From the NCBI RefSeq assembly GCF_001431415.1, contig NZ_LDJI01000009.1, positions 124,001 through 188,000 on the forward strand: 64,000 nucleotides of DNA. Reading direction: 5' to 3'. Shown here piece after piece: positions 26,381-48,764 of the stretch (positions are counted from its first letter, which is position 1; every line of letters starts with the position of its first letter). The translations under genes and the position numbers were made by a program. The notes under the pieces are model-generated. The model was not told where the DNA came from. It saw only the letters and a list, made by a program, of their open reading frames with translations, and ran no database searches. The DNA comes from Stenotrophomonas humi. GTDB taxonomy: Bacteria; Pseudomonadota; Gammaproteobacteria; Xanthomonadales; Xanthomonadaceae.

Positions 26381-26455
26381 TGGCAGGTCGCTACGGACTT
26401 GAACCGCAACCTCCACGGGTTTGGAGCCCGGGCGCACTGCTTGCGCTATCGACCC
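26381..26455 (-). tRNA. Phage tRNA-Trp (CCA anticodon), first copy
   Basis: 75 nt with encoded CCA and discriminator G, as in bacterial tRNA-Trp. Anticodon loop CTCCAAA gives CCA. Acceptor pair 1-72 is G-U and the base pair next to the D arm is poor; the D loop is short. Functional status is uncertain. Confidence 0.7.
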
Positions 26456-26462
26456 ATAAACT

Positions 26463-26536
26463 GAGGCGTGGCAGGACTCGAACCTGCGACCGGCACCATA
26501 CAAAGGGGCTGCTCTGGCCGACTGAGCTACACGCCG
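26463..26536 (-). tRNA. Phage tRNA-Thr-like (TGT anticodon), first copy
   Basis: T arm GCAGG-TTCGAGT-CCTGC and D arm are sound. Anticodon loop TTTGTAT gives TGT. The first acceptor pair (C-U) and one anticodon-stem pair are mismatched, and CCA is not encoded. It may be degenerate. Confidence 0.6.
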
Positions 26537-29600: not shown

Positions 29601-29676
29601 TGGCGAACGGGGCAGGACTTGAACCTGCAACCACCGACTTTGGAGGACGGTGCTCTGCCAATTGAGCTACCCGAAC
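29601..29676 (-). tRNA. Phage tRNA-Trp (CCA anticodon), second copy
   Basis: 76 nt, encoded CCA, discriminator G, anticodon loop CTCCAAA. D and T arms are sound. The acceptor stem carries two consecutive U-U mismatches (pairs 2-71 and 3-70) and the anticodon stem one. Retained identity elements suggest recent function. Confidence 0.72.
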
Positions 29677-29681
29677 GTGAT

Positions 29682-29757
29682 TGGCGGCGGGCCTAGGACT
29701 CGAACCTAGATCGACGGGATCAAAACCCGTTGTCCTAACCAATTGAACGAACCCGCT
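29682..29757 (-). tRNA. Phage tRNA-Gln (TTG anticodon)
   Basis: 76 nt, encoded CCA, discriminator G, anticodon stem ACGGG/CCCGT, loop TTTTGAT giving TTG. The first acceptor pair is A-C, otherwise well formed. TTG reads CAA, a rare glutamine codon in a high-GC host. Confidence 0.8.
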
Positions 29758-29762
29758 ATGTG

Positions 29763-29837
29763 TGGAGCCGCCCGTGGGATTTGAACCCACAGCCTGCTGT
29801 TTACAAAACAGCTGCTCTGCCGTTGAGCTAGAGCGGC
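29763..29837 (-). tRNA. Phage tRNA-Thr (TGT anticodon), second copy
   Basis: 75 nt, fully paired acceptor stem (GCCGCTC with GGGCGGC), encoded CCA, anticodon stem GCTGT/ACAGC and loop TTTGTAA giving TGT. The best formed of the phage tRNAs. TGT reads ACA, rare in a high-GC host. Confidence 0.88.
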
Positions 29838-40616: not shown

Positions 40617-41023
40617 ACAATTTGAACGCAATCGGCCGCGTGGGCGGCAAGGACGCCGTTACTCGTTACACCCAAGCAGGCGAACCCGTTACCGGCTGGT
40701 CGATGGCTGTGGACTCTGGCTACGGCGATAAGAAGCAGACCATTTGGATCGACTGCTCAGCATGGGGCAAGCGTTTCGAGAAGGTCGCCGAATACATCAC
40801 CAAGGGCGTGCAGCTTGGCGTGACCGGCGAACTCGGCACCCGCGAACACGAAGGCAAGACCTACATCACCTTGCGCATCGCTGACGTGACCCTGGTGGGT
40901 GGCAAGCAGGAAAGCAGCGGCAACCAGCAGCAGGCCCAGCGTCCGGCGAGGCAGCAGCAGGAACCCGCCCAGCAGTCAGCGCCTCCCTCCGGCGATCCGC
41001 TCGACGACGACATCCCCTTCTAG
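40613..41023 (+). CDS. ssb: Single-stranded DNA-binding protein
   Basis: 136 residues. OB-fold sequence (GRVGGKDAVTRYTQAGEPVTGWSMAVD, IDCSAWGKRFEKVAEYITKGVQLGVTGELGTREHEGKTY) with Gln-rich linker and the acidic tip DDDIPF that recruits host partners. Shorter than chromosomal SSB (about 170-180 residues), as usual for phage. Confidence 0.92.
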   Translation: MNNLNAIGRVGGKDAVTRYTQAGEPVTGWSMAVDSGYGDKKQTIWIDCSAWGKRFEKVAEYITKGVQLGVTGELGTREHEGKTYITLRIADVTLVGGKQESSGNQQQAQRPARQQQEPAQQSAPPSGDPLDDDIPF

Positions 41024-41247
41024 GACCTACGGGGCGGAATGCGCAGTGGTGATGCGCTCATGTGCGGGAAAGAACCCCTGATGTAGTTCAGGGCTGGTAG
41101 CGAAAGCTAATCCGTTGGTGACGGCGGAACCGGCAGACCCGTTTGATGCTGGCGAATTGACGCGCTTTAGACCGTTAAACATAGGCTGGTTTGAGTCCAG
41201 CTAAGCCGGGATCACCTCCGGCCCGCCCCACCCTTTAGGAGCAAGAC
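41024..41247 (+). ncRNA. Candidate structured RNA element after ssb
   Basis: 224 bp without a gene that can form a string of hairpins: GCGCA/TGCGC (41041-41057), CCCTGA/TCAGGG (41076-41093), TAGC-GAAA-GCTA (41098-41109), CCGT/ACGG (41112-41124), CCGGC/GCTGG (41130-41152), GCTGG-TTTGAGT-CCAGC (41185-41201, like a tRNA T arm) and CCGG/CCGG (41206-41221). It ends with GGATCACCTCC, equal to the 16S rRNA 3' tail. Could be a cis-regulatory leader or a separate small RNA. Confidence 0.5.
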
Positions 41248-41511
41248 ATGAGCAACAACGGATGGATGCCGATTGAGTCGGCTCCGAAAGATGGAAGCGC
41301 GATCACTGTTTACGACATGTATCAGACGGACTTCAAGAAAAATTCAAACGGCATCTATAGGCAAACGGGACGCGACGGGTATGGAGTAGTTACGGCATGG
41401 TTTAAGGACGGCGCATGGCTGATGCACTCACGGGACGGGGTGGTGATTGCGTGCACCAATCCTGCCCACTGGATGCCCATCCCCGCTCCCCCGACCGGAG
41501 AAGACGAATGA
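41248..41511 (+). CDS. DUF551-like protein, 87 aa
   Basis: MPIESAPKDGSAITVYDMYQ, VVTAWFKDGAWLMHSRDG and NPAHWMPIPAPP are hallmarks of the small DUF551-type phage proteins. AGGAG lies 8 bp upstream. Function unknown. Confidence 0.75.
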   Translation: MSNNGWMPIESAPKDGSAITVYDMYQTDFKKNSNGIYRQTGRDGYGVVTAWFKDGAWLMHSRDGVVIACTNPAHWMPIPAPPTGEDE

Positions 41512-43925: not shown

Positions 43926-44238
43926 GAGATTGCCAGACCTGTATACCGAGGCTTTCGCGGCTGCATATCTTGGCGTTGCTGAGATCACCCTGCGCCGAAT
44001 CCGAAAGCGCGGACACATCGGCCACGTCCGCATAGGAAAGGCCGTCAAGTACACCGAACACCACCTACTGAAATACCTGGAGCAGCAAACGTGTCAGCCC
44101 GATTCCGCCTTGGCGACTACTGGATCGAACAGCGCAAAGGATCTGCCGTCTGGTACCGGGCGTGGCGTGACGCGAGCGGATGCAAGCAGCGCGCTTCGCT
44201 TGGCACAAGAGACATTGCAGAAGCACAAGTCGCACTAG
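43912..44238 (+). CDS. Excisionase-like HTH protein
   Basis: 108 residues. MerR-type winged helix in the first 60 residues (YTEAFAAAYLGVAEITLRRIRKRGHIGHVRIGKAVKYTEHHLLKYLE), typical of excisionases and of helix-turn-helix 17 proteins. The C-terminal 50 residues lie over the integrase 5' end in another frame. Adjacent to int as expected for Xis; alters directionality of recombination. Confidence 0.72.
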   Translation: MSAAERLPDLYTEAFAAAYLGVAEITLRRIRKRGHIGHVRIGKAVKYTEHHLLKYLEQQTCQPDSALATTGSNSAKDLPSGTGRGVTRADASSALRLAQETLQKHKSH

Positions 44239-45284
44239 CGCGGTGGTACGTCGAGAACGCAGCGATGCTCAATCAGGCGCCGCAGGACGTGCTGCTTGAT
44301 ACCGTGTTGACGCGGTACCTCGCCCAACACGGGGATGGCCTCGCCAGCAAGGACAGCGCCAAGCGCGGCGTTGCGCTGTGGCGCGAGTGGTGGAAGCCGA
44401 ATGATGCTGTTGCCGACATCACCATTGGCCGCCAGGAGGACTTCCTCAAATGGCTGCGCGACAAGCAATACAGTGAGGGCTATTCACGCCGCATCTTGGG
44501 CGTGGGGAAATCGGCGTTAAATCGAGCATGGAAGCGCGGCGAGATCGCCCAGGTTCCCTTTGTGGAATTGCCGCCAATTGGTGACGCCTACCCTCACTAC
44601 GCGACGCGCGAGCAGGTTGTGCGCCTACTGAATGCGCCAATGCCGGAGCACATCTGGGCGATGCTCCTTATCCGCCTGTGCACCGGCTGCCGTGGTGATG
44701 CTGCGCATGACCTGCAGGTTTTCCAGATCGACAGGCGCGCTGGCCTGATTCGCCTGAATCCGCCGGGACGCAAGCAGACGAAGAAGTACCGGCCGGTCGT
44801 GCCTCTGCTACCCGTTCTGGACGCCTACCTGGAAACGGCCAAGCCATCGGCCTGCGTGGTGCACTGGCACGGCAAGCGCGTGGCGTCCGTCAAAACCACT
44901 TGGCGCAAGATCCGAATGGCTGCCGCACTTCCGGTGTGGTTCGTTCCGAAAACGATCCGCCACACGGTCGCGACGTGGCTTCGTCAACGCGGCGTGCCTG
45001 CATGGGAAGTGTCGGGATTGCTCGGCCACCATGCGGGCGGAACGACAGACGCATATGCCAAGTTCGACCCGTCATATCTGGGTGAAGCACGAAAAGCGTT
45101 GATTGAGATACTCGCCGATCTGGCGAAAGATGTTCCGAGATTGTCGGAGCTGATTGGGGTCAGTGTGGGGTCAGTTGACCCGCAGACCCCATCAATTGAT
45201 TCCACTGAAAGCACTGCTACATCTAGGCTTAAAGTGGTGGGCGGTACAGGGTTCGAACCTGTGACCCCTACCATGTCAAGGTAG
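44091..45284 (+). CDS. int: Tyrosine-recombinase integrase with stop codon formed at attR
   Basis: 397 residues from GTG 44091. Catalytic residues: R201 (CTGCR), R290 in KTIR (box II Lys instead of His), H313 (LGHH) and Y322. The last 16 codons lie in the att core and encode the GGTGFEPVTPTMSR string that comes from antisense tRNA. The TAG uses the last core T plus two host bases. In the circle the frame would run on for nine more codons. Host-target tRNA-Val(GAC). Confidence 0.93.
   Translation: MSARFRLGDYWIEQRKGSAVWYRAWRDASGCKQRASLGTRDIAEAQVALARWYVENAAMLNQAPQDVLLDTVLTRYLAQHGDGLASKDSAKRGVALWREWWKPNDAVADITIGRQEDFLKWLRDKQYSEGYSRRILGVGKSALNRAWKRGEIAQVPFVELPPIGDAYPHYATREQVVRLLNAPMPEHIWAMLLIRLCTGCRGDAAHDLQVFQIDRRAGLIRLNPPGRKQTKKYRPVVPLLPVLDAYLETAKPSACVVHWHGKRVASVKTTWRKIRMAAALPVWFVPKTIRHTVATWLRQRGVPAWEVSGLLGHHAGGTTDAYAKFDPSYLGEARKALIEILADLAKDVPRLSELIGVSVGSVDPQTPSIDSTESTATSRLKVVGGTGFEPVTPTMSR
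45155..45173. promoter_or_regulatory. Putative integrase arm-type sites, right side
   Basis: TGGGGTCAGTGTGGGGTCA, two TGGGGTCA units 11 bp apart, inside the integrase C-terminal coding region. Differs by one base from the left copy at 7611-7629. Confidence 0.5.
45232..45282. repeat. attR core: 51-bp repeat within intact tRNA-Val gene
   Basis: Exact match to 7476-7526. It restores the 3' part of tRNA-Val, so the host gene stays functional after integration. Confidence 0.95.
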
Positions 45285-45309
45285 TGCTCTACCGCTGAGC
45301 TAACCGCCC
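45235..45309 (-). tRNA. tRNA-Val (GAC anticodon), prophage attachment gene
   Basis: 75 nt with encoded CCA. Acceptor GGGCGGT with ACCGCCC, anticodon loop TTGACAT giving GAC, T loop TTCGAAC. The 5' half is host DNA and the 3' half is the phage-borne core. Confidence 0.96.
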
Positions 45310-48200: not shown

Positions 48201-48277
48201 GCCCGAATAGCTCAGCCGGTTAGAGCACTTGACTGTTAATCAGGGGGTCGTTGGTTCGAGTCCAACTTCGGGCGCCA
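48201..48277 (+). tRNA. tRNA-Asn (GTT anticodon), copy 1
   Basis: 77 nt with encoded CCA. Anticodon loop CTGTTAA gives GTT. Identical in sequence to the opposite-strand copy at 48688-48764. Confidence 0.97.
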
Positions 48278-48687: not shown

Positions 48688-48764
48688 TGGCGCCCGAAGT
48701 TGGACTCGAACCAACGACCCCCTGATTAACAGTCAAGTGCTCTAACCGGCTGAGCTATTCGGGC
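48688..48764 (-). tRNA. tRNA-Asn (GTT anticodon), copy 2
   Basis: 77 nt, encoded CCA, same sequence as copy 1. Convergent with it across about 410 bp, each with its own terminator. Upstream sequences (TAGAAT then CCCC before the 5' end) are also shared. Confidence 0.97.

Follow-up and report, generated by a model that had tools for sequence, protein, structure and literature searches.

A structured element between phage genes of Stenotrophomonas humi is probably a general RNA scaffold of phages that carries exchangeable cargo, and not a switch for the next gene

Introduction

What is the structured gap that follows the ssb gene in a phage region of Stenotrophomonas humi, and does it control the gene behind it? 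In the window (the whole stretch of 64,000 nucleotides analysed here), the stop of ssb lies at 41023 and the next ATG at 41248, with AGGAG upstream at 41237-41241. The neighbours are phage genes, with a RecE-like exonuclease and SSB encoded upstream and an excisionase-like gene and an integrase downstream, and the 41248 gene itself encodes a small protein (phrog_924) without known function. A first-pass annotation had read the gap as a candidate for a new phage regulatory RNA or riboregulator, with a CCTCC that could pair with the AGGAG of the next gene or titrate ribosomes.

The top half of a tRNA consists of a closing stem, a short joint, the D-arm and a 5-bp hairpin abutting the stem, with a contact between the two loops. 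Skipping-rope RNA was reportedly described by Weinberg and co-workers in 2017, and we know of no function for it. One passage of PMC8501573 counts skipping-rope RNA among the reported phage non-coding RNAs, and the legend of a figure on Rfam 14 describes it as drawn with a pseudoknot (PMC7779021).

Results

Extent and structure of the element

The 224 nt between the two genes folded with a z score of -1.91, and 4 of 200 shuffled sequences folded equally well. With the bounds set at 41031-41232 the z score was -2.87, and 0 of 200 shuffles were as good. A closing helix, P1, encloses the hairpins and was present in the folds of both bounds. We place the structured element, 199 nt long, at 41031-41229 on the plus strand, between ssb and the small 41248 gene (Table 1).

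Inside P1 the order is P2, two nested long-range stems, a small hairpin, a T-loop-like hairpin and P10. The nested stems enclose one hairpin together with a three-way unit whose tetraloops are of the GAAA and GNRA types. Both 4-bp long-range stems depend on the alignment described below, and they are missing from the single-sequence fold of the window. P2 is separated from P1 by 3 nt, and P10 is joined to P1 with zero gap. The hairpins that had been named in the first-pass annotation are present, i.e. a GAAA stem (TAGC-GAAA-GCTA) and a T-arm-like hairpin (GGCTGG-TTTGAGT-CCAGCT, 41184-41202).

Table 1. Parts of the predicted RNA, in window coordinates.
Feature	Position	Strand	Basis
Whole element, frame and class W interior	41031..41229	+	Homologues, covariation, only scanner match in the window, fold z -2.87
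P1 5' strand GGGGCGG, partner 41223-41229	41031..41037	+	Double changes at 6/8 aligned pairs
Joint AAT, P1 to P2	41038..41040	+	Invariant in 18/18 rows, but AAT required by the extraction pattern
P2 hairpin GCGCA-GTGGTGA-TGCGC, D-arm-like	41041..41057	+	Double changes in 4/5 pairs
GGTGA, kissing helix 5' side, partner TCACC 41212-41216	41048..41052	+	96.7% of cells paired
Long-range stem ATGT, partner ACAT 41179-41182, encloses the interior	41060..41063	+	18/18 paired; one pair with three pair types
Stem CGGG, partner CCCG 41138-41141	41065..41068	+	18/18 paired; one double change
Hairpin CCTGA-TGTAGT-TCAGG	41077..41092	+	Alignment covariation
Three-way unit GCTGG/CCGGC, holding the GAAA tetraloop stem and a GUGA tetraloop stem (41112-41127)	41093..41134	+	Alignment covariation
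Hairpin GCG-AATTGA-CGC	41152..41163	+	18/18 paired; double changes in 2/3 pairs
T-loop-like hairpin GGCTGG-TTTGAGT-CCAGCT	41184..41202	+	Alignment covariation
P10 hairpin GCCGG-GATCACCT-CCGGC, abuts P1 3' strand, holds the supposed 16S tail	41205..41222	+	18/18 paired, but CCGG...CCGG required by the extraction pattern
P1 3' strand CCGCCCC, followed by ACC (41230-41232)	41223..41229	+	P1 covariation and pairing in frames

Rfam gave no family at the element in 40900-41350, even at E 10, and neither ARAGORN nor RF00005 called a tRNA at the element or in the loci L169-L176.

Homologues and covariation

A DNA search found the element in 3 of the 150 whole genomes, its own included, and the other two copies were 86 and 88% identical. 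A phage search added a homologue in Stenotrophomonas phage CUB19 (83% identical), which immediately precedes a tRNA array with six genes annotated and seven predicted. More homologues, at least those among the matches listed, came from pattern scans of viral contigs. In CUB19, the 475 nt before the element (L004:4515-4990) are without an annotated gene, appear hairpin-rich by eye and possibly hold another structured RNA; there was no Rfam match in L004 4400-5220.

Alignment A3 comprises 18 sequences that are akin to the window element by their interior. The extraction pattern demanded parts of P2, the AAT joint and the CCGG strands of P10, and all 18 named sequences passed. Two chance matches (L040, L063) and two plain tRNA genes (L160, L163) were dropped before counting, and three duplicates (L035, L036, L164) were removed.

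RNAalifold predicted 50 pairs on A3. In a manual structure of 55 pairs, 96.4% of the cells were paired and 23 of the 55 pairs showed double changes among the 18 sequences. The covariation score of this structure was 0.354 versus 0.130 in shuffles, the number of double-change cells was 108 versus 31.4 in shuffled alignments, and slid-partner controls were paired in 26-39% of the cells. Helices 3, 4, 5 and 10 had one double-change pair each. The P10 stem, without a double change in A3, is not counted as evidence because it was part of the sequence selection. Taken with the fold and the homologues, this covariation, which had been proposed as a check, confirms that the gap after ssb is highly structured.

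G-U occupied 64 cells of the 55-pair structure, against 8 A-C cells in 50 of the 55 pairs. This excess favours an RNA of the plus strand, in a structure drawn with G-U allowed. Judged by covariation, 41031-41229(+) is a predicted conserved structured non-coding RNA.

The 16S rRNA tail and the next gene

The first-pass annotation had the element ending in GGATCACCTCC, which we take to be the 3' tail of 16S rRNA. Instead, the string (41209-41219) forms the loop and stem of hairpin P10, after which the 3' strand of P1 follows. Only 2 of the 18 aligned sequences, those of the window and CUB19, contain it; other rows have strings such as GGATCAGCTCC, AGATCAGCACC, AGATACCACC, GGATCGAATCC and AGTGGGCACC in P10. 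A mimic of the 16S 3' tail would need a conserved and unpaired CCTCC, which was not found in A3.

The P2 loop can pair with the P10 loop, as GGTGA/TCACC in the window and as GCTGA/TCAGC in most A3 rows, while L038, L039 and L165 have different loop letters and solve the complementarity otherwise. Both sides of this kissing helix changed in 3 of the 5 pairs, slid versions were paired in 7.8-50% of the cells, and the kissing loops stood outside the sequence selection. As far as the alignment tells, P10 keeps its complementarity to the P2 loop and not the anti-SD letters, and with these letters varying, the proposed 16S mimicry and ribosome titration both lose their footing.

These results bear on the idea of a cis-acting leader or riboregulator of gene 41248, in which CCTCC-AGGAG pairing or the hairpins would gate translation. 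The 3' end of the element is only 18 nt from the ATG and CCTCC is complementary to AGGAG, as such a leader would have it. However, the P10 pairing and the kissing are preserved while the anti-SD letters change, and the same kind of downstream gene did not recur among the homologues compared: tRNA genes begin 7 nt past the aligned stretch in CUB19 and L039, and the downstream ORFs in L002 and L003 are dissimilar to the 41248 product. Control of the 41248 gene is unsupported because the anti-SD letters vary and the next gene differs, and we regard a cis-acting leader as highly improbable. What stands of the proposed regulatory RNA is a structured phage RNA with covariation, and the element is not likely to be a switch for gene 41248.

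The frame in other genomes

Helix P1 of 7-8 bp, the 3-nt joint, P2, P10 directly on P1 and the kissing loops together constitute what we call the frame. Loci L170-L173, four new matches of a covariance model built from the 18 sequences, have P1, P2 and P10 in common with the window element and carry different interiors, and the interior of L176 is alignable only in part. Frames were found in phages and in bacterial genomes of Enterobacterales, Pseudomonas, Burkholderiales and Xanthomonadales. They include those of phages P1, D3 and HK620, whose records, on inspection, contain the frame without RNA annotation. The frame was sought and not seen in CPS-53 of E. coli K-12. It was not found in the open-access literature searched, and absence there is no proof of being unpublished.

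Scans of viral contigs and named bacterial genomes with P2 and P10 motifs yielded counts that are lower bounds and represent no random sample. We used a scanner that requires P1, the AAT joint, P2, a loosely lettered P10 and kissing loops. Among the matches listed, it found 222 distinct frames in the fetched loci, versus 0 in the same loci reversed; the loci themselves had been selected by their P2, P10 or interior motifs. It found a frame in 63 of 119 genome stretches, again among the matches listed.

For a test of P1, 113 distinct frames were picked by P2 and P10 motifs only. Positions 1-7 paired in 91-98% of these frames, with many pair types, and positions 8 onward in 62, 42 and 25%. ACC directly followed a 7-bp P1 in only 25 of the 113. 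With position 8 pairing in 62%, the predicted P1 is not strictly a 7-bp acceptor stem.

In sampled genomes, a covariance model from the 18 sequences gave matches in 9 of 297 genomes of the family, a count that takes in two loci not accepted as frames (L174, L175), and in 2 of 369 genomes of the class, the window's own genome being counted in each. Allowing a single mismatch, the P2 motif occurred in 5 of 369 and 14 of 299 sampled genomes, compared to 0 and 1 in the reversed control, and these are tallies of the motif and not of frames. Among 14 P2-motif loci from the sampled genomes, L525 was the only clear frame by rule, and L520 and L523 were doubtful; L519, at the place of L176, was accepted as a frame by the covariance model. 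Hence, the frame is widely scattered, yet present in few genomes of an even sample.

With a frame of short interior as the query, BLAST gave matches in 212 phage records and 320 plasmid records at E up to 0.1, and at least part of the query matched 1008 of 5426 complete E. coli genomes at the same E, counts that take in short matches to P1 and P2 only and are in many cases partial. The match spanned 80% of the query in 104 E. coli genomes. A plasmid search with the whole window element gave no match.

Interiors and their exchange

The interiors of 221 frames (among the matches listed) were 6-175 nt long, with a median of 78. The 218 interiors of at least 20 nt fell into 154 classes, of which 124 were singletons; because the blastn criteria that define a class (E 1e-4, 50% coverage) separate diverged relatives, 154 is an upper bound for the set. 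On average, the interiors had only a small folding advantage over shuffled sequences (mean z -0.5, standard error 0.08, n=141). A T-arm-like hairpin was present in 7 of the 154 classes, compared to 0.6 after shuffling.

Class W, to which the interior of the window belongs, comprises 17 members, whose P1 helices come in 8 different sequences. It forms a conserved, structured domain that retains the GNRA tetraloops and the T-loop-like hairpin. A coding capacity of the element was rejected, as the interiors of the 17 members range from 146 to 165 nt and no common ORF was seen.

Interiors recur in different surroundings. One interior was common to a P1-like IncY plasmid, phage IME207 and mEp460, and 29 of the 30 multi-member classes occurred in more than one flank type. 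Conversely, the interior class differed in 20 of the 27 pairs of frames at different loci with both flanks homologous (23 of 30 if three pairs of copies in one contig, left out here, are included). The edges of the exchange were sharp in two comparisons. Between G013 and the viral contig L200, homology extended up to the last base of P2, came back 1 nt before P10, and then continued for 1.5 kb. Between G080 and G078, both of the window's genus, homology also extended up to the last base of P2 and was back within 3 nt of P10, where it spanned 67 nt before another gap. By these alignments, the interior can be replaced at homologous loci, with the edges at P2 and P10. Some contigs (L177, L237, L340, L471 and L504) contain two frames with different interiors.

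At the level of predicted structure, the comparisons demonstrate the closure by P1, the flanking position of P2 and P10, the gapless junction of P10 and P1, the covarying kissing loops, and the recurrence of the frame with unrelated interiors. The evidence for P1, P2, the kissing helix and the swap edges is independent of the P10 selection, the exchange counts and the sampled-genome counts.

Genomic context

A tRNA on the same strand lay within 500 nt of 10 of the 114 viral-locus frames, compared to a mean of 2.4 and a maximum of 5 in 200 random draws, and the remaining 104 had none within that distance. These positions indicate that the proximity to tRNAs is a real link, for a minority of the frames. 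All 13 hand-picked annotated or named regions (L004, L502-L513) contained a frame, and eight of them (CUB19, p91, IME11, IME207, ZC03, D3, P1 and Meifeng) had a same-strand tRNA within 600 nt.

Gaps without annotated genes, each containing a frame, extend over 3.3 kb in Klebsiella phage UPM 2146 (L507:1393-4729) and over 2.1 kb in Escherichia phage IME11 (L506:969-3055), and ARAGORN additionally predicts two tRNA-like genes in the latter (2591-2748). The frame of D3 falls inside a hypothetical ORF of its record, and that of phage P1, at about 69818, overlaps plp on the opposite strand; both positions speak against the reading proposed in the Discussion.

The window has tRNA genes of its own. 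The 3' end of the integrase ORF (44091-45284) runs into a tRNA-Val at 45235-45309(-), which probably marks an attachment site. Two small clusters on the minus strand, at 26381-26536 (Trp, Thr) and 29601-29837 (Trp, Gln, Thr), perhaps come from another mobile element, and the scanner finds no frame there. Furthermore, two inverted tRNA-Asn(GTT) genes lie at 48201-48277(+) and 48688-48764(-), with 410 nt between them.

The frame of HK620 is located between the late promoter and a terminator. Terminator-like sites within 200 nt were present downstream of 48 of 208 frames and upstream of 24 of 208. In the lambdoid phage CUS-3, the frame (L502:2502-2715) lies between Q and S, the same interval that contains the annotated 'boundary sequences' bsq4 and bsq3 (L502:2366-2429 and 2721-2961), which lie on either side of the frame and are distinct from it.

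This arrangement, and the fall of the swap edges at P2 and P10, would suit a DNA element, i.e. a recombination 'boundary sequence' or a folded single-stranded site whose arms drive module exchange. Against it, P1 covaries instead of being conserved, G-U pairs exceed A-C in the plus sense, class W interiors retain GNRA and T-loop-like motifs, and terminator-like sites come more often after than before the frame. Moreover, the exchange may be a by-product of the shared sequence. We consider a DNA element improbable as the explanation.

Comparison with known RNAs

The layout of the frame is that of skipping-rope RNA. The model RF02924 comprises an 8-bp P1 of free sequence, a 2-3-nt joint, a 5-bp hairpin, a variable middle and a 5-bp hairpin abutting the 3' strand of P1. 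The two differ in the sequences of P2 and P10 and in the P2 loop, which has 6-7 nt in the frame versus 9 in the model, and the class W interior is larger than the RF02924 middle and is itself conserved. RF02924 (cut-off 36.7 bits) gave no match to E 10 in 40900-41350 or in seven frame-bearing loci, none to E 1 in five more, and none to E 0.1 in 41 genomes, the window's included. Locus L529, a weak match of 28.3 bits and hence below the cut-off, was dissected for its layout; in it, the two loops that kiss in the frame are complementary over 4 nt. By predicted structure, the element has the skipping-rope layout without membership by score, the sequence match being absent.

More generally, Rfam at gathering or relaxed thresholds gave no known family at the frames of the loci searched, and weak matches were located away from them. 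A possible likeness to the group I intron core, RNase P and the phi29 packaging RNA came to nothing, and what bears on it is the absence of Rfam matches.

With the top half of a tRNA, the frame shares a closing stem of 7-8 bp, a short joint, a D-arm-like hairpin, an abutting 5-bp hairpin and contacting loops. Unlike a tRNA, it has no anticodon arm in place and no constant CCA, and its loops are in contact through a kissing helix of 5-6 bp.

According to passages of PMC12286853, GOLLD and ROOL are phage RNAs, frequently found close to tRNA islands, that assemble into RNA nanocages; many GOLLD RNAs exceed 800 nt, and the term 'kissing loop' occurs 13 times in that paper. They resemble the frame as phage RNAs, whereas the interiors of frames measure 6-175 nt. 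Given the complementary loops of 5-6 nt and the precedent of these cages, the kissing helix could be intermolecular, and P2 and P10 loops kissing between molecules would yield a multimer like RNA cages or packaging RNA rings. However, the Rfam models of GOLLD and ROOL gave no match at the element or in the frame-bearing loci searched, and the distances of P2 (3 nt) and P10 (0 nt) from P1 suit an elbow within one molecule. We consider a multimer-forming RNA unlikely.

Discussion

Our preferred reading, to which we assign a probability of roughly 70%, is that the element is a trans-acting phage non-coding RNA with a constant chassis and an exchangeable core. The chassis would resemble the top half of a tRNA, with a stack of about 7+5 bp, a short joint and a D-arm-like hairpin, and its elbow would be closed by the kissing helix in place of the contacts between D- and T-loop. 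Being tRNA-like, it would be cut from longer transcripts, and its ends would be protected. This likeness, and the idea that it serves in processing and in protecting the ends, are a tentative part of the reading.

The core would be the working part of the RNA, and recombination at the constant segments, P2 and P10, would swap cores among phages. We guess that cores may be decoy or inhibitor RNAs against host factors; that the cargo acts in trans on such factors is a rather doubtful part of our proposal. In its widest form, the proposal is that phages of Proteobacteria share a modular RNA platform, with a tRNA-top-half-like chassis and more than 100 unrelated, rapidly exchanged cargoes, of which class W is one; this is conceivable, though we would not yet bet on it.

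Judged from sequence comparison, the element appears to serve phages generally as an RNA scaffold whose cargo can be exchanged, and not as a switch for the next gene. The frame connects the skipping-rope family of Rfam to model phages, where deletion and testing of the element are feasible. One frame, many cores and exchange at the frame edges suggest that phages trade RNA modules like genes, and the modular platform, if true, would be an RNA counterpart of variable anti-defence gene loci.
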